A stretch of DNA of 64,000 nt from Tellurirhabdus bombi (GTDB taxonomy: Bacteria > Bacteroidota > Bacteroidia > Cytophagales > Spirosomataceae). Below the pieces are notes generated by a model that saw nothing but the letters and a program-made list of their open reading frames with translations, had not been told where the DNA came from and made no database searches. The stretch lies in NCBI RefSeq assembly GCF_021484805.1, contig NZ_CP090557.1:4848001-4912000 (forward strand), given 5' to 3'. Both the position numbers and the translations under genes were made by a program. Below are positions 19,043 through 31,644 of the stretch, piece after piece. Every line of letters begins with the position of its first letter. Positions within the stretch are counted from its first letter, which is position 1.

Positions 19043-20263
19043 TTAAACTTCCTCCGAAGCGGGTATGTCCTCTTCCCGGAATGCTTCGTCTTCGGTCTCC
19101 TCCTTTTTTGGCTTTGATTTTTTAGTCGGACGCTTCTTCTTGGTCGCTTTTTTTTCGGTAGGGGTTTGCTTCTGGACTTCCTCGGTCTTCTGGGACTTTT
19201 TGACAGGTTGCTCCGACTCCGGTTCGTAATAAATTACCCAGATCGTCAGGGCCAGCATTAGAATAGCGAGTAAAATCCCCCAAAAGCCCGACCAATCTCT
19301 CAGGCGGGAGTGAGAAACCTCTACCGCAGCCACACCAAGCCGATTCCCGTTGGCGTCGTTCAGCGTATACGTATTGCTTTTGTTCGGCACCACCATTCGG
19401 CTGCCTTCCGGCGGCAGGTTTTGCCCAACACCCACTATCGTTACGGCGGTTGCGTTGGCTACTTTCCAATGTAATCGGACGGTTTCGCCCTGCCGAATCT
19501 CCGACGGAACCGCCTTAAAATCCTGCAAGACAGGCCCTAACGGCAAGGACGGTTTTGGCGCGGCTTCGCTTTCGTTTGTTTCTTTTTCCCACCAGCTTAA
19601 GTGCCGCCAATCGGTTGACAGTAACTTTTCTTTCAAGCTAGCTCCTTTTGGAGGTTTTACGGAAGCATAAAAATGCTCGGATAAGTAAGCCAGAATTTCC
19701 CGGGCCAACCCCTGCTCGTCGTAATCAATGGCTTTGAACAGGAAGCGTAGATTCTGCGCCGGAATATGCCGATCATAATCATCCAGAATCTCTTTAATTT
19801 TCCGACGAACTTTCTCAGTCGACTCGCTCGTGCTGACTGGCGTAACCGGCGTAGCTACGGGTGTGGCTACCGTTGCCGGAGCGGGCGGCGTAATGGCGGG
19901 AACCGGGGCCGACTGGGGTAAATCAGCCAGAATATCTGGAATCCACTTTTCCGTCATGAAGGCCCGGGACATCTGTATTCGTTCTCCTTCTTCAGTCAGG
20001 CGGCGAATGTCCTGCGGCGATAGCTGGTTTTGCTGGCTGGTAGCTAACTCGATGACGCGCTCTTTTAGATCAAGAATACGGCCAAAATCTGGCTGCACGC
20101 TGTAGCTTACCTGATGAACCAGTCGCGCAAAGGCGTCAGCTGACAAGCCCAACTGAGTCGCTTCGGTCGTTAAGCCTTTTTTCTGCCACTCCCAATCAGC
20201 TACATCGCCCTCATGTAGAATTATTTCTTCCTTAACCCGTTCCCGTAATTCTTCCAGCGTCAT
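19043..20263 (-). CDS. Tail-anchored protein with Ig-like domain (operon gene 7)
   Basis: 406 residues, unknown family. There is no signal peptide. Residues 1-115 are helical and charged. A Pro-Thr-Val-Ala linker (116-145) precedes a second helical block (150-200). Residues about 243-318 look like an Ig-type sandwich (FKAVPSEIRQGETVRLHWKV, then NTYTLNDANGN). One transmembrane helix (327-346) is followed by a strongly charged Lys/Glu tail of about 60 residues. Most of the protein should lie in the cytoplasm, anchored at its C-terminus. It is the last gene of the tubulin/actin-like operon and probably serves as adaptor or membrane anchor; that role is inferred from position only. Confidence 0.75.
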   Translation of the reverse strand: MTLEELRERVKEEIILHEGDVADWEWQKKGLTTEATQLGLSADAFARLVHQVSYSVQPDFGRILDLKERVIELATSQQNQLSPQDIRRLTEEGERIQMSRAFMTEKWIPDILADLPQSAPVPAITPPAPATVATPVATPVTPVSTSESTEKVRRKIKEILDDYDRHIPAQNLRFLFKAIDYDEQGLAREILAYLSEHFYASVKPPKGASLKEKLLSTDWRHLSWWEKETNESEAAPKPSLPLGPVLQDFKAVPSEIRQGETVRLHWKVANATAVTIVGVGQNLPPEGSRMVVPNKSNTYTLNDANGNRLGVAAVEVSHSRLRDWSGFWGILLAILMLALTIWVIYYEPESEQPVKKSQKTEEVQKQTPTEKKATKKKRPTKKSKPKKEETEDEAFREEDIPASEEV

Positions 20264-20353
20264 AATTGCAAATATAACAGGCTGGCTTGTCGATCTACTG
20301 ATGTATCGACATAGGAATCATAAAATTTCTTAGCGCGTAGACTTTAAAACTTA

Positions 20354-21769
20354 TTACTGAAAATTAATCTGCGCTTTTTCGGTAATTACCCACTTTTCTC
20401 CCTGCAAAACCAACCGCCCTGGCTGTGTGGTTACGATGCGGCTACCGGGCCGAGGCTGCGTCAGATAAGTACAGGTATCGTTCAGATACGAATAAGGGTC
20501 TGACAAGGCCAGCCGCTGTAGTTCGGGATTATCGCTCACCCGAAACACGGCTAACACGTCGCTATGGCGGGCGATTTCAAACACAGTATCCCGATCAGGT
20601 GATGGCGAGAGACCCCGCGTGCTAAATCCATCGCCTAAGTCAGCCGTCCGACCATACAACGTTGCCAACTGCCGGGGCTGGGCTGGTGCTTGTGTTGGGG
20701 CCGATACGGGCGCAGGCACAGGTTCCTGACGAGGTTGTGGTGGCGTTGGTGGTGCCGCCTGCGGTTGAGGGTTTTCAGCCGTGTCCAGCGGAACCGCGTG
20801 GGTTGGGTAAGCGGATGGCGGTGGATTCACCGACACAGTTGGTGGAGCTGGCGCGGGCTTAGGAACGCTGTGGGGCATCTGCTCCAAAACATTTGGCTGC
20901 GGATTCCAGGTTGACGCCGAAGCTGCCTGTTCAACACCCTGCAAGCGTTTCACTTCTGTTTGCAATGCCCGAACTTGCCGCTCCAAATCCCTGATCGACG
21001 ACGTATGATCCACGGATGGTGCGTTAAAGCTTGGCGCTGGAACGCCCTGCCGCCGACCGCGTAGGTACAGATAGATACCAAACAACAGGCTGATTACCGC
21101 CAGAATAAGCGCCACTATATCGTACGGAAAAGTTGATTCGTTTGTCATGGTTTCTTGGGGGGGAACAGCATCTCTCGATTGTAAACTATCAGCATTATAA
21201 GCAGATGAATCCGCGCCGACTTCATCCGCCGGAAGCGGGCCTATACCGGCCTCCTGGTAACTTCCAGCAGGTTCTGAGGCCGCCGCAGCCTGCGCTACTG
21301 GGGCCGCTTCAATCTGATTCAACTGCTGCGTGAAGGTAGCGTAGGCAGGCAACTGAGCGCGGTAAGCCCGATTTCGGTTTTGAATTATCTCCTTCTGAAT
21401 GTATTTCTGTAAATCATTCAGAATTAACTTCGTAGCCTGCCGATTCAGTGCTTTTTTCTTCCGGTAAGAGGCCAGTAAATCTACTTTGCTTTTCTGAACG
21501 CGTCCTACCAAGCCGTCAGCACCTTCCAGCCTGTTGGCCGAAATGAAAGCCCGTAATTGCGCCTCTGTCTGACAATCGGCGCATTTGGTCTGCCGGGCGT
21601 TGGGAAATGTTTGCCGGTCCGTTGCCAAAAACTCAACGGTGGCCTTCAACATTTGCAACGTCCCTCCATTGACCGCGCTAACAACCTCTTCACTGGACTG
21701 AGCCGATGCTGGCTGCGCCAGCATCAATCCATAAACCAGAACAACTATACCCCAATTGCGATATCTCAT
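20354..21769 (-). CDS. Single-pass membrane protein with coiled coil and Pro-rich linker (operon gene 6)
   Basis: 471 residues, unknown family. A signal peptide (1-24) and a helical region with a CADC motif (63-66) should face the periplasm. A transmembrane helix (216-237, YDIVALILAVISLLFGIYLY) is followed by RGRR, so the rest faces the cytoplasm. That part has a coiled coil (258-280), a long Pro/Ala/Gln linker (290-368) and a conserved-looking C-terminal domain of about 100 residues. The topology links a periplasmic sensor or assembly domain to cytoplasmic partners. It lies 21 bases after the actin-like ATPase gene, so the two are likely co-translated and may contact each other. Confidence 0.78.
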   Translation of the reverse strand: MRYRNWGIVVLVYGLMLAQPASAQSSEEVVSAVNGGTLQMLKATVEFLATDRQTFPNARQTKCADCQTEAQLRAFISANRLEGADGLVGRVQKSKVDLLASYRKKKALNRQATKLILNDLQKYIQKEIIQNRNRAYRAQLPAYATFTQQLNQIEAAPVAQAAAASEPAGSYQEAGIGPLPADEVGADSSAYNADSLQSRDAVPPQETMTNESTFPYDIVALILAVISLLFGIYLYLRGRRQGVPAPSFNAPSVDHTSSIRDLERQVRALQTEVKRLQGVEQAASASTWNPQPNVLEQMPHSVPKPAPAPPTVSVNPPPSAYPTHAVPLDTAENPQPQAAPPTPPQPRQEPVPAPVSAPTQAPAQPRQLATLYGRTADLGDGFSTRGLSPSPDRDTVFEIARHSDVLAVFRVSDNPELQRLALSDPYSYLNDTCTYLTQPRPGSRIVTTQPGRLVLQGEKWVITEKAQINFQ

Positions 21770-21790
21770 AAGCTACCCAATAAATAATCG

Positions 21791-24700
21791 CTATGATTCG
21801 GCAATATGCTTTGAAAGTTCGTACAATGCATTTTTTAGCGGTAGGAAAAAGAACGTTTCCGACAGTCGCTCGTTGGCATTCTGTTCCAACCCGACCCGAG
21901 CCAGCATGTAACTATCGAATAGGCGACCGCCCCGCGTTACGTCAGAACCCAGGAGAAATTCGAGGTATTTTTCCGGCGTTGTGATGTTGTACTCACTCAG
22001 GAAATAGGCAATGTCCCGGTCTTGCAGTGTCTTTTTCAGGAAAGTCTCGACATTGTGCAGCACCGACTCATGGAACTCATTCTGGGTCCGGGTTTCGCCA
22101 ATCTCTGTTCGTTTAAATTCCAGCGTGGTTGGTTTATCGGGTTCATTTCCCCAATAAGCCGTGGTTTCCCGCCGCTCATACGGGGTTCGGTCCGTGCTTT
22201 CCTGCGCAAATAAAACGGCGCCGTTAGCTGTCGTTTCTTTTGGATTCGGGGTCAGTAACACCCGGAAATCACTTGGCACAGGCAGGTTTGAATACGCTTT
22301 GAACAAAAGCCGGGTAAACTCATTAAGCCTTGATTCTGAGCACATCAACCGCAGGTACTGGCTACCACGACCCGTAAAAGTCAGGAAGCGCGGCAACGTC
22401 AGACCGTGGTGTTCAATGAGCTGCACCAGGTGGTAAACAATCGCGCTGTAATGCAGGTAGAGCACCAACCGAAGCGTCGGGCGACCATCCTGAATCGACT
22501 GAACAAACTTGAAATGATCGTTGTATTTGAACAGCAAACTAACGATGTCTTCCGCCGTTAATTCCTGCTTGGCCCGGAAGGTTTCCAGAATGTTGTCCTC
22601 CCGCGTCGGCACCTGGTTGAGCGAGCGACGATACTGCCAGTAATTTTTCAGGAAGCCGTTGTCTTTGCTGTGCGACGGATGCCCGTACTGGTCCAGCCCA
22701 CCGCCCCAGATGTCGTAGCCAGCAAACCGGAAAGACGTATTTAAGTACCGATTCTGCTGCTTCATGAACATCATGATGTCCGTTGTGCCACCGCCAATAT
22801 CCACGTTCACCGTGTCAGCAAAGGCCATCACGCCGTTTCGAACCAGATAAAAATAAGGCGCCAGCGATTCTGGTATGGGGTTTGGCTCAAAGTTCCGCGT
22901 CGTTTGAAACACTGACTGGACAGCCTTTCTAAACTCATCTTCCAGCTTTTCCAGGTTGACAGCCCGCATGCTTGATGGAGCCAGCCAGACAATTTTAGCC
23001 TTCTGAATATCGCCCTGATTCAGCAGAATTTTATTCCGAATCATCAGCATCAGGGTTTCAAAGAAAGCCCTTACGCGGGGGCGGTTCAGCGAATCTCCCG
23101 GCTGGTTTTCGAACAGCCACTTCAGGTTGGTGATGTAGTGGTTAACACCCGTATCGCCTTCTTCCAGGTCAATATTGAACCCTAAATTGACTTTGGTGAA
23201 CAGGTTGTCGCCACTGTCGGAGAAGCCACTTTTCTCGTAAACGGTGGTCCGCAGCGGAAACGAGAAGGGAGAGCCAAACTCTTTACCAATGATAGGCGGC
23301 ATAAATTCCCGACGGATGTGCGATTCCATCTGGATCAGTTGCCCGAAGCTCACCCGCTTTTCGTACTTGTCGTACATGGATTTCACTTCGTAACCCGTGT
23401 AGGGCTTGTTCAGCGACACCATCTGCAACTCGTCCTGGTTCAGCACAATTTTCTGATCGCTGATGGTCAGTGCCTGCGGTTCGATGCTCCCCGGACCGGC
23501 TTCCATGTAGGCAATGTGCGTGTTGGATGTACCAAAGTCAATCCCAAATGTAAACGCTTTGTAACCGGGCTGGCTTATCACCGTAAACTTAGGCACCACC
23601 AAACCCCGGTACGGAATTCCATTTCGTTCGAGCCGCAGTTCGATCAGGTCAAATGCCTGGGGCACTTTGTAATAATACGTACCTACAAAAGGCGATGCTT
23701 TTGGCGAGCGGCCCTCCGGCGTTGGTACAATAATGGGTTTGTTATGAATGATGTTGGCGTATTCAAAAAAGCTCACCGAGTCAGGGCGGAAATTGCACTG
23801 CGGATCACTTTCGTCGGCCAGCATCACCGTATATTGGTTCAGACTCTGCCAGTAAGGATCGGGCACCGTGGTGCGGTAGAACGGGAAAAAGGCCATTCCC
23901 GACCGGAAATCCAACACCGTTTCGGGCTTCGACAAATCGTATTCTTTCCGAAATTCCACAAACCGATTGTTCCGAATCGGAACCCGCAATGTCGCCGTGA
24001 TAACCCGTCCCATCCCGCGAACATCTTCCCGCATGGTGAGGTACTGCTGCAAATCTTCCGGACGGAAAAAATTAAAATACTCTTTCCGAATGGGCAGCAT
24101 AAACTCACTGTCACCACTCATGCCGGTCATGAATCGGTCGTTATTGACCACAAACGGCAGACGGATCAGAAAATCTTCCAGAAAATCGTCGGTAGTTACG
24201 AACGGATAACGCACGTTGTCGACGCCCGGCAAAAACCGCTCGACCAGCAAAGGAGTCAGCGAGGTTTTAAATACCACCGTTTGCGGATTCCAGTTGGTGC
24301 TTTTGACGTAACGACCGGGTATATCCATACGGGAAGCCAACACCAGCGGACGCCGCATGTTGGTAGAGGCCCCAGCGCGTGCTTCCTGCTGGTAATAGAA
24401 AACCGTTGGCTGAATGACGAAATCGCTGTTCGTTTCAATGTCTTCCAGCACGTCGGCTTCGCGTACTTTGTAGAGCATCAACCCGGGCATAACCTGTAGG
24501 GTCGAATTGCCTTCGCCGCCGGTCTGGATGGGCTCGAAGCTTTCCAGCGTTGTCCCTCCCGCAATGGGCAGATTGGTTTGGCTATCGAAGAAAACGCGGT
24601 ATAAATATTCTTTGAAGCCCCCCGACAGTAGAGAACTACCATATTGGTCGTAGAGCCGTCGCAGGTAGGTCACAAAAGCCTCGTCGCGCTCCGAAAGCGG

Positions 24701-25327
24701 AACGTATTCGTTCTGGAACAGAATTCGGCCCGTCGTACTTTTTGGCGGATCAATGTATTTGCTCTGCCGTTCCTGTTCCCAGTTTGGCGACGTAAATACG
24801 AGTGTCAGCGGCGACGTACTACCCAGAAGCGCCCCTTTGTAATAAATCAGGGTAAATTGCTGAATCCCCGTCAATTCGTTCCGCATATCCAGTTCCAGCG
24901 CTTTGGCCAGAATCTGGTGCGGATGCCGACCCGCCGTCGTGCCCCCGTTATTGCGCTGGTTCAACGCCCCCAAACGTTCCGCCCGATTCCATACCCGGTA
25001 CGTCAGATCGTTGCTGTTACCCGCCTGAAAAAGCAGTTCCAGCATATCCAGACAGTGCGATACCAGCACATGATAGAGGGAAAGCTCGCGGGGAATCAGG
25101 TTATTTTTCACCATCCGAAACGCCGTATCGAACAAATACAGGCGGGCAAACGGCGACGGAATAGAGGTTCCGGCCTTGGCTGCCACCGCCGCACTCATGG
25201 TTCCCGAAAGCGTATCCGGAATGTGTTCAATGCGGTTACCAACCAGACCACTGTGAGAACCCGTCCAACCCTGGTGGTTCTGCTGGCTAACGTTGGGGTC
25301 GTTATCAATACGAAGGATATGCGCCAT
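21791..25327 (-). CDS. Large protein with Hsp70/actin-type (ASKHA) ATPase domain (operon gene 5)
   Basis: 1178 residues, no signal peptide or membrane helix. The C-terminal half carries the ATPase signatures of the actin/Hsp70/sugar kinase fold: phosphate-1 GIDFGTSNT (595-603), phosphate-2 VDIGGGTTD (842-850), an adenosine-type motif LTFTGRGSQYL (982-992) and ANGAVLF (1034-1040), resembling the connect-2 region. The first 590 residues match nothing recognised and contain several strand-rich segments. ASKHA proteins either polymerise (MreB, ParM, FtsA) or work as ATP-driven clamps (DnaK). The length is well beyond either. It lies between the tubulin-like gene (70 bases) and the membrane protein gene. 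Confidence 0.88.
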   Translation of the reverse strand: MAHILRIDNDPNVSQQNHQGWTGSHSGLVGNRIEHIPDTLSGTMSAAVAAKAGTSIPSPFARLYLFDTAFRMVKNNLIPRELSLYHVLVSHCLDMLELLFQAGNSNDLTYRVWNRAERLGALNQRNNGGTTAGRHPHQILAKALELDMRNELTGIQQFTLIYYKGALLGSTSPLTLVFTSPNWEQERQSKYIDPPKSTTGRILFQNEYVPLSERDEAFVTYLRRLYDQYGSSLLSGGFKEYLYRVFFDSQTNLPIAGGTTLESFEPIQTGGEGNSTLQVMPGLMLYKVREADVLEDIETNSDFVIQPTVFYYQQEARAGASTNMRRPLVLASRMDIPGRYVKSTNWNPQTVVFKTSLTPLLVERFLPGVDNVRYPFVTTDDFLEDFLIRLPFVVNNDRFMTGMSGDSEFMLPIRKEYFNFFRPEDLQQYLTMREDVRGMGRVITATLRVPIRNNRFVEFRKEYDLSKPETVLDFRSGMAFFPFYRTTVPDPYWQSLNQYTVMLADESDPQCNFRPDSVSFFEYANIIHNKPIIVPTPEGRSPKASPFVGTYYYKVPQAFDLIELRLERNGIPYRGLVVPKFTVISQPGYKAFTFGIDFGTSNTHIAYMEAGPGSIEPQALTISDQKIVLNQDELQMVSLNKPYTGYEVKSMYDKYEKRVSFGQLIQMESHIRREFMPPIIGKEFGSPFSFPLRTTVYEKSGFSDSGDNLFTKVNLGFNIDLEEGDTGVNHYITNLKWLFENQPGDSLNRPRVRAFFETLMLMIRNKILLNQGDIQKAKIVWLAPSSMRAVNLEKLEDEFRKAVQSVFQTTRNFEPNPIPESLAPYFYLVRNGVMAFADTVNVDIGGGTTDIMMFMKQQNRYLNTSFRFAGYDIWGGGLDQYGHPSHSKDNGFLKNYWQYRRSLNQVPTREDNILETFRAKQELTAEDIVSLLFKYNDHFKFVQSIQDGRPTLRLVLYLHYSAIVYHLVQLIEHHGLTLPRFLTFTGRGSQYLRLMCSESRLNEFTRLLFKAYSNLPVPSDFRVLLTPNPKETTANGAVLFAQESTDRTPYERRETTAYWGNEPDKPTTLEFKRTEIGETRTQNEFHESVLHNVETFLKKTLQDRDIAYFLSEYNITTPEKYLEFLLGSDVTRGGRLFDSYMLARVGLEQNANERLSETFFFLPLKNALYELSKHIAES

Positions 25328-25397
25328 ATGTATGTATCTGCGAACTTAATTCGCTTAACGTCAATGAATAAATAGAATTTTCACGAACAAGCGGAGG

Positions 25398-26888
25398 CTA
25401 AACATCCGTTAATTCGCGGTTCAATGCACCGAGTTTATCGCGGCATTTCTCCGCCATGTCAATCAGCAGTTGCATGAAGCGCTGCTCTGTTTGCGGAAAG
25501 GAGCCTTGCAGGTTATGTTCAATCCGACCCGCCTGTTCGCGGAGGAAACGGTCGCTTATGCCCTTATCGAAAAAGCTGGTTTCGATGCGTTTGGCCCGCA
25601 CTACTGAATTGAATTCAGCGCCCAGGTCAAAGGGGTGGAAACTGCGGTCATTCTCCGCCATTTCGCGCAACCACTCTTTATAATGGTGGCCCAGGAAGTT
25701 CCGTAATGCCTGGTAGAATGTGCTGGTATTCAGGTTTTGCGGCAACGCCAGATTTTTCGCAAACGCTTCTCCCAAGTTCGCCGGGACAAAATCGGTAAAT
25801 AACTTCGTTGCGTAGGTAAACCGAATCAAGGGCTCCAGCACGCCGTGGTAGGTTGAATCGTGAAAATGAGGCAAATCCAGACGCCGGTCGTTGCGTTTAA
25901 GGCCGTATTCGTAGAAGCGCTTGTTTTCCGTAAAATCGTCGTTGTGTTTGCTGGCAAAATGCAGAATCGATTCCGCCGCCAGCAGTTCCACCACGTGGGC
26001 GTTGTTCAACTGCTGCGAGCCGCCTTCTACGTTCGGGTAAAGCTTGCTGCCCGGTTTATCACCAATATAATATAAGGCGTCGAGGTCAATCTGGTTCTGG
26101 TAGTAAGACAGCGCCGCTTTGGTTTTCGACAGGAAGCGGTTCTGATCAATCGAACTCTGGGTATTTTCTTCCAGCGCGAAATAAGGCATCACCGTCACGG
26201 CCCCTTTACGGGCATTGCGGATGTGCATTTTCTGGCTGGGATGCTGCAACAGCTTCACCAGTTGCGGAAAGCCCGATGAACCCGTTCCGCCAAAAATAGA
26301 ACTGATGATAAAGACCCGATCCGTTTCATTGTTGAACGCCCCCGTGAAGTATTTGTAAACCGCCGAATCCTCTAGCGAGTTAAACACCACACTTCCGATA
26401 TTGGGATTTCCTTTGAAGCCAACCGACAGATTCAGCTTTAGCTCCGTACTGGTTGGCTTGGCCGAGTTGTCGTAAAATAGTTTCAGAAACTCGCGGTCAA
26501 TTTCTTCCATGCTACTGACCTGCAAAAACTCCTCGAAAGTTCCCTGGTGCTCGGTCAGTTTAGGCAATACCGAATCGCCGATTCGTTCCTGCGCATTTTC
26601 GGCCTGTAGGGTGCCGAGCGGTTGCAGCGGCGTGGCAAAAAACGTCCGTCGTTCCGTCTGCGTACCCTGGCTGGCTGCCGTATCTTTGTAGGCAATGCGT
26701 CGGATGGTTCGGTATTGTTCCACCAATCGCAATGCCCGTTCGGTATCGCCGTTCTGCATGTCCATGTCCAGCAGAATCGGAATAATGGTTAAATCGGCGG
26801 GGGCTTTCGCGCCAGCCGCCAGCAACATTGTCAGCGAACGCAGCACCCGAGCACCCGTTCCCCCTATACCGAAAAGAAATAATTTCAT
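25398..26888 (-). CDS. Tubulin/FtsZ-like GTPase (operon gene 4)
   Basis: 496 residues. The N-terminus FGIGGTGARVL (6-16) matches the first nucleotide loop of tubulin/FtsZ proteins, and FGGTGSSG (199-206) matches the tubulin signature GGGTGSG that binds GTP phosphates. The layout fits the Pfam tubulin-like group known from diverse bacteria rather than true FtsZ: it is longer, lacks the FtsZ C-terminal peptide and is not in a division cluster. Known relatives were proposed to work in membrane remodelling with VWA proteins. The gene lies 120 bases downstream of a small membrane protein and directly before the Hsp70/actin-like gene. GTP binding is well supported; polymerisation is an inference. 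Confidence 0.9.
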   Translation of the reverse strand: MKLFLFGIGGTGARVLRSLTMLLAAGAKAPADLTIIPILLDMDMQNGDTERALRLVEQYRTIRRIAYKDTAASQGTQTERRTFFATPLQPLGTLQAENAQERIGDSVLPKLTEHQGTFEEFLQVSSMEEIDREFLKLFYDNSAKPTSTELKLNLSVGFKGNPNIGSVVFNSLEDSAVYKYFTGAFNNETDRVFIISSIFGGTGSSGFPQLVKLLQHPSQKMHIRNARKGAVTVMPYFALEENTQSSIDQNRFLSKTKAALSYYQNQIDLDALYYIGDKPGSKLYPNVEGGSQQLNNAHVVELLAAESILHFASKHNDDFTENKRFYEYGLKRNDRRLDLPHFHDSTYHGVLEPLIRFTYATKLFTDFVPANLGEAFAKNLALPQNLNTSTFYQALRNFLGHHYKEWLREMAENDRSFHPFDLGAEFNSVVRAKRIETSFFDKGISDRFLREQAGRIEHNLQGSFPQTEQRFMQLLIDMAEKCRDKLGALNRELTDV

Positions 26889-27008
26889 AAGCTTTGATTC
26901 CCTCAGCCCGGCTCCTGCATATGAAGCCGAGGCGTCTTGAGATTCTTTTTTAGTTCTTTAATAACAGCACCTTTCGCCCCTATCCCAACATTTATCTAGC
27001 GCCTAAAA

Positions 27009-27383
27009 TCAAAACGGAGTCCGTTTGGCAAAGATGGAAAACCGCTTCAGAATGACGGAAAATGCGAAAAAGAAAATAAGGGCGTACAACGCATTTACGG
27101 CGCCAAATCCCTGCATGTACCCATCTGTTTCGTCGGCTCCCGTCCGGTCCAGCGCAAACCAGAGTGCATAGCCAAACCCAAAAATACCCACGGCAATCAG
27201 CGTAATGACCCAATGCACAATGTTATCGAAAACCGGCTTCCAGCGCCCCAGCAAGACATAAAACACCGCCGCCACGACGAGCGCCAGCATCAACGTCATG
27301 AATCCAACGGGACCAAAAATTTCTTCACTATAAATGGGGTCGTTATTCTGGCCTAAAATCAATTCATACAGGGAAGTAAACAT
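27009..27383 (-). CDS. Small three-helix membrane protein (operon gene 3)
   Basis: 124 residues with hydrophobic helices at about 27-46, 56-77 and 94-113 and a basic C-terminus (KRFSIFAKRTPF). No enzymatic motif or family was recognised. A conserved-looking acidic stretch, DRTGADETDGYM, lies between helices 2 and 3. The gene follows the VWA lipoprotein by 15 bases and precedes the tubulin-like gene. The most likely role is inner-membrane anchor or channel part of the same assembly, inferred only from the tight gene order. Confidence 0.8.
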   Translation of the reverse strand: MFTSLYELILGQNNDPIYSEEIFGPVGFMTLMLALVVAAVFYVLLGRWKPVFDNIVHWVITLIAVGIFGFGYALWFALDRTGADETDGYMQGFGAVNALYALIFFFAFSVILKRFSIFAKRTPF

Positions 27384-27398
27384 GCGGAGTGCGGTGGT

Positions 27399-28676
27399 TT
27401 ATTTTTTCAGTTTAATGGTCAGATTCAGAAAATCGTTGGTCGATGACTGGTAGGCTTCCTTGACCCCGCTCATCAGGTATTGCAGGGCAAATGTTTTGCC
27501 CCGCCGCCCGGCAGCAGTCCGGTCATCCAGGGTAGTCCAGTCTTTCTCGTACCAGTTGTCGAACCGCACGGGCAATTTGATCGCTACGGTTGCTTCATTA
27601 CCATACAAGTTATCGACCCGAAATGTTAGAACATGCGTGACTCCATTGAGGATTTTCTCCTCGCGCTCACTCAGCTTTGCCGTGTTCGAGAGGTCGTCTT
27701 TGCGCTGAACGGTCGCCAGTTTAACGGCGGCTTCCTTCGCATTGACTGTCAGATTTTTCCGCAAATAGTCTTCCGACTGGGCGTAAGCGGGCAGATTTCC
27801 CAAATCCAGCCCAATGGCAAATTCTTCGGGATTTCCGCTGCGCGCCCGCATGTCGGCCAGGCTGCCCCGCTCGGCCCGCCACTTGCCTTTTTTGTTCAGC
27901 GAGAAAAATAACTCATAATCGGTTAGTGCCGTACCCGTACCGAAATTCAAAACCTTGGCGGGTTGCACCGACAGCATGCCCTGAAGCTTCTGATTAAAAT
28001 CATTGAGCAATTCCTGCTTCCCGATTAGCCAGATGTAAAACGGGCGCGGTTCGCCGGAAAGCTTCTGCTTGGCATTCCGATAGTCGTAATACGTTCCGTT
28101 ATACTGCGAGGTAAAGGCGTAAACGGTGGCCCCAACGCCTTTCTGGGAGAGCTTGGAAAACTGATCGTAAATCTGGTTTTTCAGCACGCTGGACGCATTT
28201 TCCCGGTTGATTTCAGGATTTGCTTTGATCTCGTTATCGGGAAACGACAAAATCGCGTCGGTTACCAGCATGGCGATGTTGGACGTACCAGCCTTTTGCC
28301 CTACCTGCTCGAAAATGGTGTGCAGTTTGGAGCTTTTCCCGGTAGCCAGCGGCGTGGTGGCGAGGCCTTCCACAAACTGGCGGGCATCGCCGGTATAGGC
28401 TTGCGGTTTTTCGGTAATGGTCCAGACTTTGAGGGGCTTGATGGTATTGGCTTTCGTCACCACGTCGGAAACCACGTCTTTAAACTCCGTACCGCCCCGC
28501 AGATACCCCCCCATACTGGCAGAAGTTTCCATAAAGAAATGAACTTCCTTCAGGGAAGCCGCCGCCGGGGCAGCCGTTTTCTTTTCTTCTTTTTTTTCGC
28601 GTGAGCCGCCGCAACCAGCCAGCAAAAGCGTCAACACCAAGAGCCCATAAACAGCTCGAAATAATCGTATAGTCAT
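27399..28676 (-). CDS. VWA-like lipoprotein with altered MIDAS motif (operon gene 2)
   Basis: 425 residues. A signal peptide ends in the lipobox LLLAGC (Cys22), so the protein is lipid-anchored in the envelope. After a Lys/Glu/Ala linker, VHFFMETSASMGGYL (45-59) aligns with the first strand and metal-ion site of von Willebrand A domains, where DxSxS is replaced by ETSAS. The strand IAMLVTDAILS (134-144) supplies the later Asp, and VYAFTSQYNG resembles another core strand. VWA domains bind protein ligands through a metal. The C-terminal third (TLDDRTAAGRRGKTFALQYL and similar) is unassigned. It is encoded 13 bases after gene 1 of the operon. Confidence 0.8.
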   Translation of the reverse strand: MTIRLFRAVYGLLVLTLLLAGCGGSREKKEEKKTAAPAAASLKEVHFFMETSASMGGYLRGGTEFKDVVSDVVTKANTIKPLKVWTITEKPQAYTGDARQFVEGLATTPLATGKSSKLHTIFEQVGQKAGTSNIAMLVTDAILSFPDNEIKANPEINRENASSVLKNQIYDQFSKLSQKGVGATVYAFTSQYNGTYYDYRNAKQKLSGEPRPFYIWLIGKQELLNDFNQKLQGMLSVQPAKVLNFGTGTALTDYELFFSLNKKGKWRAERGSLADMRARSGNPEEFAIGLDLGNLPAYAQSEDYLRKNLTVNAKEAAVKLATVQRKDDLSNTAKLSEREEKILNGVTHVLTFRVDNLYGNEATVAIKLPVRFDNWYEKDWTTLDDRTAAGRRGKTFALQYLMSGVKEAYQSSTNDFLNLTIKLKK

Positions 28677-28689
28677 TCTTTGTAATCTA

Positions 28690-29301
28690 TCAGTTATCTT
28701 CTTTTCGCTGGTAAGGTAACAAGTAAGCCGCTACGAGCAATGCGCCAAGCAGGTAGGCGTACGTGCGGGTAGCGTCGTCAGCCTGAAAACCATCGCAGCT
28801 TTGTAGTCCGTAGGCGATTAACGAAAAAAGAACGATTTGCCACACAACCGCCCGCACTCGCCAGCGTTTCGCTCCTGTACGAAAAAAATTGGCTTCAATA
28901 ACCAGCAATATAGCCGCCAGAATTGCCCAGATGGATTCGATCAGCTTCGGTGTCTGACCGCCCCGAACCCGGTTTTCCTCGCCACCCGCCAGCAACAGCG
29001 CAATCAGGGATAGCCCGGAAATCAGCACACCCGGCCAGTTTAGCCAGCCACTCTGTTTTACGGGTGCACCAACCGTTTGTCTGGGCACATAAGCGACGGT
29101 TCTCGCTACGGGGGCCGCTTCGGCATAAGGTAAAATCTGCACCGGGCTTTCTTCTCTAACGTTTATATCGACCGTTTGATTATCTGTTATGATCATTCCA
29201 GCCGTCAATTCTTCGTGCCGAAAGTAATGCGTCTGGCCGGTTTCATCCCGTAAAAGGCCGCACTGGCTTAGTTCGTCATAATGAATAATGGTTCCCCGCA
29301 T
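28690..29301 (-). CDS. Four-helix membrane protein with cold-shock-like N-terminus (operon gene 1)
   Basis: 203 residues from the ATG at 29301 (a TTG 15 codons upstream is not favoured). Residues 1-35 (MRGTIIHYDELSQCGLLRDE, then HYFRHEEL) follow the start of an OB-fold cold-shock domain, in which a strand pair precedes the F/Y-F-x-H segment. A linker of about 50 residues leads to four transmembrane helices (about 88-106, 120-140, 150-167 and 180-196). Fusions of a cold-shock domain to small membrane domains are known (for example with DUF1294), but the membrane part here is not recognised as that family. It is the first gene of the seven-gene operon and diverges from rsmA. Confidence 0.72.
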   Translation of the reverse strand: MRGTIIHYDELSQCGLLRDETGQTHYFRHEELTAGMIITDNQTVDINVREESPVQILPYAEAAPVARTVAYVPRQTVGAPVKQSGWLNWPGVLISGLSLIALLLAGGEENRVRGGQTPKLIESIWAILAAILLVIEANFFRTGAKRWRVRAVVWQIVLFSLIAYGLQSCDGFQADDATRTYAYLLGALLVAAYLLPYQRKEDN

Positions 29302-29405
29302 GGAATGGATAGCCGTGAAAGCGGGTAAAAGTAGCAAATGACCCAAATATTTGCTAAAGATTTAGGATGGTTTGACGATAAGTCTTATTAATGGACGCAG
29401 GGTTG

Positions 29406-29435: not shown

Positions 29436-30221
29436 ATGTCTAACCATTCTGTACGGCCCAAAAAACACCTGGGTCAGCATTTTCTGAAAGATCTGTCCAT
29501 TGCCCAGCAAATCGCGGGCTTGTTATCAGGTCATAATGCTTATAAAAAGGTACTGGAAATTGGACCGGGGATGGGCGTTTTGACCCAGTATCTCCTCCCC
29601 AATGAGCAGTTCGAAACGCATGTTATCGAAATTGACCGCGAATCGATTTCCTATTTGCAGCAGCATTTTCCCAGTTTGAGGGGGCGCATTATCGACGGCG
29701 ACTTTCTCCAGATGGATTTGCGCAAACTGTTTCAGGAGCCCGTGGCGATCATTGGCAATTTTCCTTACAATATTTCCTCCCAGATCTTTTTTAGGGTATT
29801 GGAGTACCGCGCGCAGATTCCAGAAGTGGTTTGCATGCTTCAGAAAGAGGTAGCCCAGCGCATTGCTTCCCCTCCGGGCAATAGAGATTACGGAATTCTA
29901 AGCGTGCTTTTACAGGCTTACTACGATATTACTTACGAATTTACGGTCGATGCCAGCGTTTTTCAACCACCTCCAGCGGTTCAGTCGGGCGTGATCCGAT
30001 TAAAGCGAAACAGCGTCGAGGCGCTTCCCTGTGATGAAAAGAAGTTTGTTCAGGTGGTCAAACAGGGGTTTAATAACCGCCGGAAAATGCTGCGCAATGC
30101 ACTCAAGCCGCTCAATCCCCCCGAAACAATGCTTTCCAACCCGCTGTTAGATAAACGAGCCGAGCAATTAAGTGTAGCCGATTTTGTGAAGCTAACGCAG
30201 TTGATGACCCCCGAACAATAA
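29436..30221 (+). CDS. rsmA: 16S rRNA (adenine1518/1519-N6)-dimethyltransferase RsmA
   Basis: 261 residues, full length. RsmA (KsgA) dimethylates the two adjacent adenines in the loop of helix 45 during late 30S assembly. The SAM-binding motif I is VLEIGPGMGVLT; motif IV is NFPYNIS, the family variant of NLPYN. The opening KKHLGQHFL is also diagnostic. The C-terminal helical domain contains QGFNNRRKMLRNALK. It probably begins a transcript that continues into mgtE (70-base gap) and dtd. Confidence 0.97.
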   Translation: MSNHSVRPKKHLGQHFLKDLSIAQQIAGLLSGHNAYKKVLEIGPGMGVLTQYLLPNEQFETHVIEIDRESISYLQQHFPSLRGRIIDGDFLQMDLRKLFQEPVAIIGNFPYNISSQIFFRVLEYRAQIPEVVCMLQKEVAQRIASPPGNRDYGILSVLLQAYYDITYEFTVDASVFQPPPAVQSGVIRLKRNSVEALPCDEKKFVQVVKQGFNNRRKMLRNALKPLNPPETMLSNPLLDKRAEQLSVADFVKLTQLMTPEQ

Positions 30222-30291
30222 GGAATGAACCGCGCGGCAACCGCCAGGAAGCGGGCACGAACAGCATTCTTATTGGTTGCTTCTTACGATC

Positions 30292-31644
30292 ATGACTTTC
30301 GAACTAACTAAAGAATATTTAGAAAGCCTTCAACTTGCCATCGAAGCCCGTGACGATTCGACCCTGCTGGCCGAGATGGATGAGCTATACCCCGCCGATA
30401 TTTCTAGCATTTTGTATGAATTGGATAACGAGTCGGCGCGGTATCTGCTCAATGTGCTAGATAAAAAAGTGGGGGCCGAGATTCTGGCCAATCTCGACCC
30501 GTCCGAACGCGTTGATTTTCTGAAGAGTTTCCAATCTACCGAACTGGCCCCGTTCATCGAAAACATGGACTCGGATGATGCGGTTGATATCTTGAACGAG
30601 CAATCCATTCAACTGCGTGAAGAAGTAATTGCCCTGCTGGAAGACCGCGAACAGGCCCGTTTCATTCTCGACCTGCTTCACTACGACGAAGACGTGGCTG
30701 GCGGTTTGATGCAGAAAGAATTAATCAAGATCAACGTCAACCTCACCGTAAATCAGTGTATTGAGGAAATCCGGCAGCAGGCCGAGGATGTCGAAAACGT
30801 CAACGTGGTGTATGTGGTGGACGATAGCAGCAAACTGCTGGGCTTTGTCTCGCTGAAAAAAATAGTTCTTTCGCAGAAAAACGCCAAAATCGCCGACATC
30901 TACGAAGAAGACATTCACTTTGTGGAAACCTACCGCCCAGCGCAGGAAGTAGCCGAAGTGATGCAGCGTTATGACCTGGAAACCATCCCCGTCGTGAACG
31001 TACAGGGGCGACTGCTGGGCCGAATCACCATTGATGACATTGTAGACGTTATTACCGAACAGGCCGAAGAAGACATTCAGGCCATTTCGGGTTTGTCGGG
31101 TGAGGTGGAAGAAACCGACAGCGTCTGGGAACGGGCCAAAGTGCAGTTGCCGTGGCTCATTGCCGGGGCAGTCGGTAGCCTATTGGCCGCGACGGTGATC
31201 AATGGTTTTCAGAGTGAGTTGGGTAAAGTAGCCGCCCTGGCTGCTTTCATTCCGATCATCGGTTCGACGGGTGGCAATGTCGGCATTCAAACGTCTTCGC
31301 TGATTCTGCAAAGTCTGACTGATACCTCCGGCCTGTCTACGACAATCGGCCAGCGGCTGCTGCGTACGCTTCTGGTGTCGCTGCTTAATGGGCTGGTGGT
31401 TGGCCTGATTGCGGGACTTTATACCTTTCTGATTGGTGAACAAAGGCTCTTTTTTGTGGTGGCAGCCTCACTCTTGGCCGTTGTTTTACTGGCTTCGTTC
31501 ATGGGAACAGTAACCCCATTGCTCTTAAACCGAATCGGGATCAATCCCGCCGTTGCCTCCGGTCCCTTCATTACCACCGCCAACGACTTAATTGGCATTG
31601 GTGTCTATTTTCTGATTGCAGATCTTTTACTTTCTGAATTATGA
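30292..31644 (+). CDS. mgtE: Magnesium transporter MgtE
   Basis: 450 residues from the ATG at 30292; a TTG five codons upstream was not favoured. It has the full MgtE plan: an N-terminal superhelical domain with LLAEMDELYPADIS and ILANLDPSERVDFL, a CBS pair (about 140-255) and a C-terminal membrane part of five helices starting AQVQLPWLIAGAVG-like. This is followed by the pore signature GSTGGNVGIQTSSL and PFITTANDLIGIGVYF. MgtE is a Mg2+ channel gated by cytosolic Mg2+ on the N and CBS domains. Its stop overlaps the dtd start by 4 bases (ATGA), so the two are translationally coupled. Confidence 0.96.
   Translation: MTFELTKEYLESLQLAIEARDDSTLLAEMDELYPADISSILYELDNESARYLLNVLDKKVGAEILANLDPSERVDFLKSFQSTELAPFIENMDSDDAVDILNEQSIQLREEVIALLEDREQARFILDLLHYDEDVAGGLMQKELIKINVNLTVNQCIEEIRQQAEDVENVNVVYVVDDSSKLLGFVSLKKIVLSQKNAKIADIYEEDIHFVETYRPAQEVAEVMQRYDLETIPVVNVQGRLLGRITIDDIVDVITEQAEEDIQAISGLSGEVEETDSVWERAKVQLPWLIAGAVGSLLAATVINGFQSELGKVAALAAFIPIIGSTGGNVGIQTSSLILQSLTDTSGLSTTIGQRLLRTLLVSLLNGLVVGLIAGLYTFLIGEQRLFFVVAASLLAVVLLASFMGTVTPLLLNRIGINPAVASGPFITTANDLIGIGVYFLIADLLLSEL

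Follow-up and report, generated by a model that had tools for sequence, protein, structure and literature searches.

The locus and its genes

The 64,000-nucleotide stretch of the Tellurirhabdus bombi genome analyzed here (contig NZ_CP090557.1, positions 4,848,001 to 4,912,000 of the forward strand; hereafter "the window") contains, between positions 19043 and 29301, seven open reading frames (ORFs), designated A-B-C-D-E-F-G in their order on the minus strand and separated, from A to G, by 13, 15, 120, 70, 21 and 90 bases according to the ORF list, just as the initial annotation of this DNA had described them (seven genes in one direction, gaps of 13 to 120 bases). The two central genes encode a tubulin/FtsZ-fold protein (D) and a giant protein of the acetate and sugar kinase/Hsp70/actin (ASKHA) class (E), which stand side by side in nearly all genomes examined and suggest that an envelope machine with two motors, not described so far, exists here. 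The nucleotide-binding motifs singled out by the initial annotation, GGTGSSG in D and GIDFGTSNT and VDIGGGTTD in E, were all located in the translations, and the coordinates of genes and motifs are collected in Table 1; gene A, which begins with a TTG at 29346 in the ORF list, is counted from its ATG.

Table 1. Genes of the operon and features mapped within them (window coordinates)
Feature	Position	Strand	Description
Gene A	28690..29301	-	203 amino acids (aa) from ATG; 3 predicted transmembrane (TM) segments; lineage-specific accessory; 17/20 loci
Gene B	27399..28676	-	425 aa lipoprotein, von Willebrand factor A (VWA)-like region; core
B lipobox LAGC (Cys22)	28611..28622	-	N-terminal segment and lipobox pattern
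B MIDAS-like E50-T-S-A-S54	28515..28529	-	metal ion-dependent adhesion site (MIDAS); canonical first residue is D
B Asp140	28257..28259	-	pairs with LSDG, the third MIDAS element in true VWA proteins; no variation in alignment A10
Gene C	27009..27383	-	124 aa, 3 TM; core
Gene D	25398..26888	-	496 aa, tubulin/FtsZ-fold GTPase, Tubulin_2/FtsZl1 kind; core
D T1-type loop IGGTGAR	26847..26867	-	motif pattern
D T4 signature FGGTGSSG	26271..26294	-	motif pattern
Gene E	21791..25327	-	1178 aa ASKHA ATPase; ~590-residue N-terminal region without assigned fold; core
E phosphate-1 motif GIDFGTSNT	23519..23545	-	residues 595-603
E phosphate-2 motif VDIGGGTTD	22778..22804	-	residues 842-850
Gene F	20354..21769	-	near-core; 471 aa; single TM segment, then a Pro-rich linker and a conserved C-terminal domain
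F central TM segment	21062..21118	-	residues 218-236
Gene G	19043..20263	-	406 aa, TM 326-344; lineage-specific accessory; 16/20 loci

Among the seven proteins D alone exceeds a Pfam cut-off (Tubulin_2), whereas NCBIfam yielded nothing over its cut-offs and PADLOC nothing below an E-value of 0.01, its one weak match being that of the N-terminus of A, which reads as a cold-shock-type domain (CSD_V, E-value 0.031).

The tubulin-fold protein D

The protein D has a tubulin/FtsZ fold. Scored as a whole protein against the Pfam family Tubulin_2 (PF13809) it reaches 31.2 bits, the cut-off being 27 and the best stretch covering residues 190–250; in a six-frame search of the genome the same gene scores 24.3 bits, under the cut-off, and a cyanobacterial member of the family scores 22.1 bits. 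The model of D, built from 21 sequences, has a predicted local distance difference test (pLDDT) value of 73.5 and a predicted template-modeling score (pTM) of 0.83. In Foldseek it gives a single match at an E-value ≤0.001 (FtsZ 6unx, 9.2e-4); 48 of the 50 rows listed are titled FtsZ, CetZ, tubulin, BtubA, microtubules or gamma-tubulin complexes, the titles of the remaining two (12dl and 7sqc) being uninformative as to the fold, and the TM-scores of the listed rows are low (0.19–0.28 by query length). The best VIA match of the model is CetZ 3zid (Z 15.1, root-mean-square deviation 3.3 over 208 residues, model range 1–346). In the model, residues 1–355 match FtsZ/tubulin, and the C-terminal ~140 residues are predominantly helical, as compared with the FtsZ-like N-terminal domain, extended coiled coil and helical C-terminal domain of Tubulin_2/FtsZl1 proteins. 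The agreement of the Tubulin_2 cut-off, the model and the structural matches bears out the tubulin-like GTPase that the initial annotation had read from the motif.

Of the loops that bind GTP, the T4 pattern is present in 20/20 diverse members of the D family and the T1 pattern in 19/20, so that, with the cut-off passed, D can be placed on sequence grounds with the Tubulin_2/FtsZl1 proteins. The exact T7-type motif (N-x-D-x-x-[DE]) occurs in three of the 20 sequences, in two of them after the presumed helix H7, but an acidic residue is found at the T7 place (318), after the presumed H7, in 13. Because of these two counts, FtsZ-type hydrolysis between D subunits would be neither assured nor excluded; a first reading, according to which the T7 loop is simply lost in D, was dropped upon this recount.

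The giant ASKHA protein E

E is an ASKHA protein, in accordance with the actin/Hsp70-like ATPase proposed in the initial annotation. The matches of its family profile to MreB (6.3e-6) and Hsc70 (2.5e-4) lie in the latter half of the nucleotide domain, and that to mitochondrial Hsp70 covers phosphate-1. An AlphaFold2 model from 21 sequences is poor (pLDDT 43, pTM 0.37) and lends no more than weak backing to the assignment of the ASKHA half; in a structure search the leading rows that it retrieves are ASKHA proteins, namely MreB, exopolyphosphatase, BiP and ParM. The first ~590 residues have no library match over cut-off. The weak Pfam matches of E are led by FtsA, the best reaching 22.5 bits, under the cut-off of 31.8.

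That the ASKHA nucleotide-binding domains of E and Hsp70 can be aligned, that 17/20 D sequences are devoid of the exact T7 motif and that the partners are a lipoprotein and TM proteins would suit a chaperone or secretion machine, in which E would be an Hsp70-like unfoldase or holdase whose client-binding region is oversized, D a non-polymerizing GTPase regulator and the membrane components would export or assemble surface proteins. This is nevertheless unlikely: the ASKHA motifs lie in the C-terminal half of E, the reverse of the order of Hsp70, where they are at the opposite end, the best profile match of E is MreB and not Hsp70, and neither DnaJ nor GrpE is matched among the seven proteins (Pfam, NCBIfam).

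The family SrfB (PF07520) was also considered for E and rejected, since nothing exceeds its cut-off and the matches cover only ~23 positions. What E shares with the SrfB of SrfABC, to judge from weak profile matches, is its length and an ASKHA stretch resembling phosphate-2: two of 16 E members match SrfB, with a best E-value of 0.056. Unlike for a SrfB protein, however, the cut-off is passed in 0/99 genomes and the window's own genome gives no match; the weak matches fall in frames of 415–470 aa, which are probably FtsA. Likewise, at 1e-3 the E profile has matches in 392 of 395 phylum genomes, 12 of them strong and the rest weak and local (1.3e-9 or weaker); the latter were not counted as E, and those listed, mostly in frames of ~330–500 aa, are probably FtsA and MreB, to judge from length and position.

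The VWA-like lipoprotein and the membrane partners

A Kyte-Doolittle scan (threshold 1.6 for the window proteins, 1.5 for distant loci) predicts three TM segments in A and in C, one in F and in G and none in D and E and, together with the lipobox motif, finds an N-terminal segment with a lipobox cysteine (Cys22) in B. The lipid anchor and the four membrane-anchored proteins of the initial annotation are thereby supported, and so is, as to the lipobox, its VWA-like lipoprotein; the VWA part of that claim relies on motifs and a weak profile match, Pfam VWA having no match either in the window copy or in 17 members. Among 23 first genes, i.e., those in the position of B, the strict lipobox pattern is found in 15 and a D/E-x-S motif, placed by eye at the expected strand, in 21, with Asp in five of these; the first MIDAS residue is Glu in the window copy and Asp in two cyanobacterial copies. 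When the B profile was compared by hhalign with a set of 20 genuine VWA proteins drawn from 12 genomes, all three MIDAS elements aligned (ETSASM on the MIDAS start, Ser116 on Thr and VTD on LSDG) with a P of 0.0026 but a probability of only 11.6, the control families D and E giving 0.6 and 0.3, respectively. B is thus a probable VWA-like lipoprotein.

As to the membrane proteins, those in the position of C have 3–4 predicted TM segments in 14/15 distant loci and two in the remaining one (L075). F begins, as read by eye, with a signal-peptide-like sequence and a C-x-x-C pair, followed by one TM segment, the linker and the conserved C-terminal domain, which profiles recover in 6/17 distant loci, as against 1/17 for the N-terminal part. 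G, which NCBIfam SrfA matches weakly (0.38), carries Pfam WG repeats in nine of 12 aligned members, the window copy being without them.

A conserved core with D and E as one unit

A search of genome contigs with D alone yielded 20 loci, in records titled Larkinella, Arsenicibacter, Rudanella, Fibrella, Fibrivirga, Fibrisoma, Spirosoma, one Flavobacterium and one Cytophagales. In these loci, one of which (L010) is cut by a contig end, tblastn (E-value ≤1e-4) detects B, C, D and E in 20/20, F in 19/20, A in 17/20 and G in 16/20, always in the window order, and since B to E are all present in this same order in loci found by D alone, their grouping is not due to chance. The record titled Flavobacterium sp. 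SUN052 (L009) has an operon much like the Rudanella ones, of similar identity to the window, and may represent a mislabeled genome or a transfer.

In 395 genomes sampled across the phylum, the D profiles found 13 positives, and 14 after addition of distant members, the window's genome included. The neighborhoods of the other 13 were read (L037 being probably the same genome as L015), and the order lipoprotein, small TM protein, tubulin-like protein and giant protein of 1126–1301 residues recurs in eight distant loci (L038–L041, L043, L044, L047 and L048); L039 has additional short frames in the C–D and E–F intervals. In L047 and L048, B and C were identified from their position, a lipobox and the TM scan, the B profile giving no match and 0.0026, respectively. 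In L042 and L046 the cassette is cut by a contig end, and the E of L046, missed by the close-relative profile, was recognized by its position and by the ASKHA motifs that its sequence shows when aligned. A decayed cassette, with D frame broken and E missing, is found at L045:6925–12414 (G390:C38), in a genome flagged for 13% contamination.

Profiles built without these members also found the cassette in Prevotella sp. oral taxon 299 (L072), in which there is no ORF of at least 80 aa in the place of C, and on plasmids of Gloeothece verrucosa PCC 7822 (L073), with B in opposite orientation, and Synechococcus sp. NIES-970 (L074). Outside Bacteroidota the coverage consisted of plasmid records and IMG/VR contigs; five of the latter carry D with E downstream, L107 and L108 being near-identical, and the gene order is retained on the cyanobacterial plasmids and these contigs alike. 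The window's D has no tblastn match (E-value ≤1e-3) in 50,697 phage records. A and G are restricted to the window's relatives, with the addition of G in L044. The core of the system is therefore B-C-D-E, usually followed by an F-like gene and then by a variable continuation, A and G being lineage-specific. Thus, of the seven-gene operon of the initial annotation the part that recurs in order across Bacteroidota is B-C-D-E; A and G are outside the conserved unit, and the search among relatives for a broken gene order, which the annotation had proposed as a test, found the core order held and only the edges not conserved.

Within this core, D and E form one evolutionary unit. In the window's family, 80 of the 200 genomes examined carry D, and these genomes and no others carry E (75 of 167 when the less complete genomes are set aside); all 82 D copies are followed on the same strand by E, with a gap of 17 to 1451 bases between the matched stretches (median 122). 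In the phylum sample, in which D occurs in 14/395 genomes, the 12 strong E matches (E-value ≤2.1e-65) are all in D-positive genomes; nine of these 12 genomes, including the window's own, supplied rows to the profile, so that their scores are high by construction. Of the three that supplied none, L037 and L040 are strong and the contig-cut L042 gives 2.9e-20. The profile of close relatives scores E at 5.1e-85 or better in L038, L039, L041, L043 and L044 but only weakly in L047 (1e-6) and L048 (3e-8), and it misses the E of L046. Furthermore, over the 20 loci the tree distances of D and E are correlated with an r of 0.976, as compared with 0.90 for B and D and 0.907 for B and E (0/5000 permutations each), shared descent explaining part of the correlation.

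The two D-positive phylum genomes without a strong E are the one with the broken cassette (G390) and one (G215) in which a single frame of 1,615 residues (L075:548–5395, G215:C35) has matches first to the D profile, at residues 117–203, with a T4-type GGTGAS (per-domain E-value 4.1e-10), and then to the E profile, at residues 1015–1054 and 1165–1307, with DFGTS and DLGGGT (per-domain E-values 0.0052 and 0.022). Judged by its motif order, this frame is a probable D–E fusion. The gene that follows it has a degenerate VWA-like motif. In another genome (G524) two separate D–E copies, with different scores, are located at C1:330486 and 7519191.

Distribution, mobility and neighboring genes

The distribution of the cassette is patchy, with 14/395 genomes in the phylum and 80/200, belonging to 16 of 36 genera, in the family. 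Moreover, L044, a member of the window's own family, groups in the tree with the Prevotella locus L072 and other distant loci and not with the window. Two copies are carried by plasmids, one of which was typed as having a MOBP relaxase. On one IMG/VR contig a MobA/VirD2-type relaxase is encoded upstream of the cassette (L110:2935–3888), and on another a methyltransferase and phage tail genes come soon after it (L106:8210–10040); the latter cassette may be phage or prophage cargo. At L047:1175–3063 (G184:C4) the cassette is immediately followed by three TerD genes of the same orientation.

The window copy is flanked on one side by genes which, from a reading of the sequence, we take to be rsmA (29436–30221) and mgtE (30277–31644). 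This side is common to nine of the 20 loci (eight Larkinella records and Spirosoma terrae) and the gene on the other side to 16/20. Among 110 proteins flanking 19 loci, no single common neighbor emerges from the 25 families listed, the commonest of which are AAA (4/110) and TerD, TPM and YkuD (3/110 each); the PADLOC list for these proteins is led by ZorB/MotB-type models (up to 4/110).

The settings of the distant copies point to a mobile accessory system rather than to a fixed cytoskeleton. The statement of the initial annotation that no defense, phage or division genes are nearby misleads about the family as a whole, because distant copies are found on plasmids, near a relaxase or a phage tail gene, or in front of three TerD genes. 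A housekeeping cytoskeleton that would serve cell shape, gliding or growth of the envelope in the family of the window, a reading close to the envelope-associated cytoskeletal machine of that annotation, would agree with the constancy of the chromosomal neighbors in the Larkinella-type loci and with the association of two unrelated cytoskeletal folds; it is nonetheless improbable, given that no match was obtained in 120/200 family and 381/395 phylum genomes and that some copies reside on cyanobacterial plasmids. Indeed, the absence of the cassette from most relatives implies that it is not essential, and its patchiness and mobility make a role in stress or conflict likelier than a housekeeping one. 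Mobile copies could also be taken as a sign of DNA partition of the TubZ/ParM kind, by which plasmids or prophages would be stabilized before capture of the cassette by chromosomes: both the tubulin and the actin fold classes serve plasmid partition, and the cassette turns up in some cases on plasmids or on contigs from a viral collection. Such a function is very improbable, however, in that Pfam and NCBIfam recognize no DNA-binding domain in the seven proteins and a lipoprotein and TM partners would not be expected.

Relation to known systems and to biological conflict

In joining a tubulin fold to an ASKHA partner of the actin fold, the cassette recalls the division pair FtsZ–FtsA, the more so as FtsA leads the weak matches of E. 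Unlike FtsA, however, E is under the FtsA cut-off, is ~2.5 times longer and is absent from most relatives, and D, unlike FtsZ, has not kept the exact T7.

A second term of comparison is the FtsZl1/vWA system, for which the main text of Makarova and Koonin (2010; PMC2875224) describes FtsZl1 with genes for vWA proteins, a kinase, a GTPase and OmpA and suggests membrane remodeling; the link of the operon to this proposal, drawn by the initial annotation, is supported by D passing the Tubulin_2 cut-off. As in the system portrayed there, a divergent Tubulin_2 GTPase, a vWA-type gene (putative in our cassette) and several membrane proteins share one operon, the distribution is scattered across bacteria, and the T1 and T4 loops are retained, the T6–T7 region being unclear. 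Unlike there, no kinase, P-loop GTPase or OmpA, which are frequent but not universal neighbors, is matched among the seven proteins (Pfam, NCBIfam), and the giant ASKHA protein is an obligate partner, whereas Hsp70 and DnaK have no occurrences in that main text; the uncharacterized families A1–A2 and B1–B9 named in it might include E. A 2023 survey (PMC9871819) describes, in its part on Tubulin_2, a sparse distribution of this family and deems a history shared with FtsZ and tubulin unlikely.

Kaur et al. (2020; PMC7159879) describe, in the sections relevant here, GTPase-centric conflict systems that join TRAFAC GTPases, tubulin homologs and an HSP70 protein. Tubulin plus vWA genes (the latter putative in our cassette) near membranes and mobile neighborhoods are common to these systems and to our cassette, and one class of theirs combines GTPases with tubulin and HSP70; unlike the cassette, they are built on TRAFAC DO-GTPases and GAP1, and no named match to DO-GTPase, GAP1, FNIII or GASH was obtained among the seven proteins in the general Pfam, NCBIfam and PADLOC scans, the flanks being only partly seen. 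According to the GAP1-N2 section, the theme of tubulin with vWA (52% of the neighborhoods) and that of HSP70 (14%), which comes with GrpE, do not overlap.

Given these parallels, the cassette could be an NTP-dependent anti-phage or anti-plasmid system in which B or the membrane components would sense an invader and D and E, acting as a threshold switch, would kill the cell or block entry. We regard this as a serious possibility, albeit less probable than the envelope assembly proposed below. Lateral transfer and presence or absence in close relatives, both marks of conflict systems according to PMC7159879, are displayed by the cassette (80/200 genomes; grouping of L044), some copies have plasmid, relaxase or phage genes as neighbors, and one is directly followed by the three TerD genes. 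On the other hand, TerD occurs in 2/14 D-positive genomes and adjoins the cassette in only one, no effector domain is recognizable in the Pfam and NCBIfam matches of the seven proteins, none of which has a PADLOC match below 0.01, and the compared neighbors of the window copy are the genes also present at this place in Larkinella and not a defense island.

The cassette appears therefore as a variant of the predicted FtsZl1/vWA and GTPase–tubulin–HSP70 systems, from which it differs by having a giant ASKHA protein as a core partner. The precedent of Kaur et al. (PMC7159879), as far as its relevant sections go, lessens the novelty of a tubulin–HSP70 pairing as such, and E may already be among the families of the 2010 or 2020 papers; no description of a tubulin plus giant ASKHA operon and no experimental study of FtsZl1 (Tubulin_2) were met among the open-licence PMC papers that the searches listed. 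The obligate ASKHA partner (80/80 D-positive family genomes) offers a concrete handle on FtsZl1, in the form of a protein pair with an apparently fused version.

Proposed mechanism

We propose, with a probability of roughly 0.5, that the cassette encodes a two-NTPase envelope assembly, consisting of the D–E pair tethered to the membrane and linked to the VWA-like lipoprotein. The physical coupling of D and E is inferred from their adjacency, the match of their trees and the apparent fusion. In the cytosol the two proteins would bind each other as an adaptor-and-filament (or adaptor-and-oligomer) pair, as FtsA does with FtsZ, E being the ATP-driven adaptor, with its large N-terminal region as a contact arm, and D the GTP-driven assembler. 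C and F would tether the pair at the inner membrane, F spanning from periplasm to cytosol, whereas B, by means of its MIDAS-type pocket, would sense or grip a ligand on the envelope side and signal inward; GTP on D and ATP on E would control assembly and release. It may be speculated that E supplies what D lacks, in a mixed assembly. The assembly would more likely be a facultative response to envelope stress or to an invader than a constant cytoskeleton, because the cassette is unevenly distributed, has been acquired horizontally and is met on plasmids and other mobile elements.

A bolder version of this proposal, which we consider doubtful, is that D and E represent a second way of joining the tubulin and actin superfamilies, an obligate tubulin–ASKHA pair, sometimes fused, that co-assembles beneath the membrane into a single mixed polymer or lattice and relays the signal of the VWA-like lipoprotein, the whole being an accessory weapon or shield exchanged among bacteria and a non-division counterpart of FtsZ–FtsA. 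If D and E do co-assemble, bacteria would have brought the two major cytoskeletal folds together on more than one occasion; if the cassette is instead a conflict system, a cytoskeleton-type mechanism would be added to bacterial immunity.

Several data weigh against the envelope assembly. That D and E bind each other, polymerize and hydrolyze GTP and ATP is a prediction from sequence; with the exact T7 motif in only 3/20 D sequences, and despite the acidic residue in 13/20, FtsZ-like filaments may not form, and E, whose model is poor, has an FtsA match only below the Pfam cut-off and no membrane segment. The VWA identity of B is weak, the MIDAS Asp being replaced by Glu, and in two loci (L109 and L110) the first genes have no MIDAS-type motif in place; the F-position proteins are diverse. 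The E half of the fusion is weakly matched, Pfam giving for this frame Tubulin at 0.027 only and no ASKHA, the strong E scores come largely from genomes that contributed to the profile, and the genomes counted are related, so that the counts are not independent events and the Fisher value for the D–E association is not to be taken as a probability. Finally, the window copy is in a settled place, with upstream neighbors as in Larkinella, and is not mobile-looking.

Other features of the operon

A search of the window with a Bacteroidota-type promoter pattern gave two matches against 2.4 expected, neither of them at the operon. The gaps preceding D (26889–27008) and E (25328–25397) stay long in relatives, that between C and D measuring at least 86 bases in 20/20 loci; being long for an operon, they possibly harbor a leader or a regulatory RNA. 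Opposite E, on the plus strand, there are open frames at 23318–24499 (393 aa) and 24644–25375 (243 aa), probably a by-product of codon usage.

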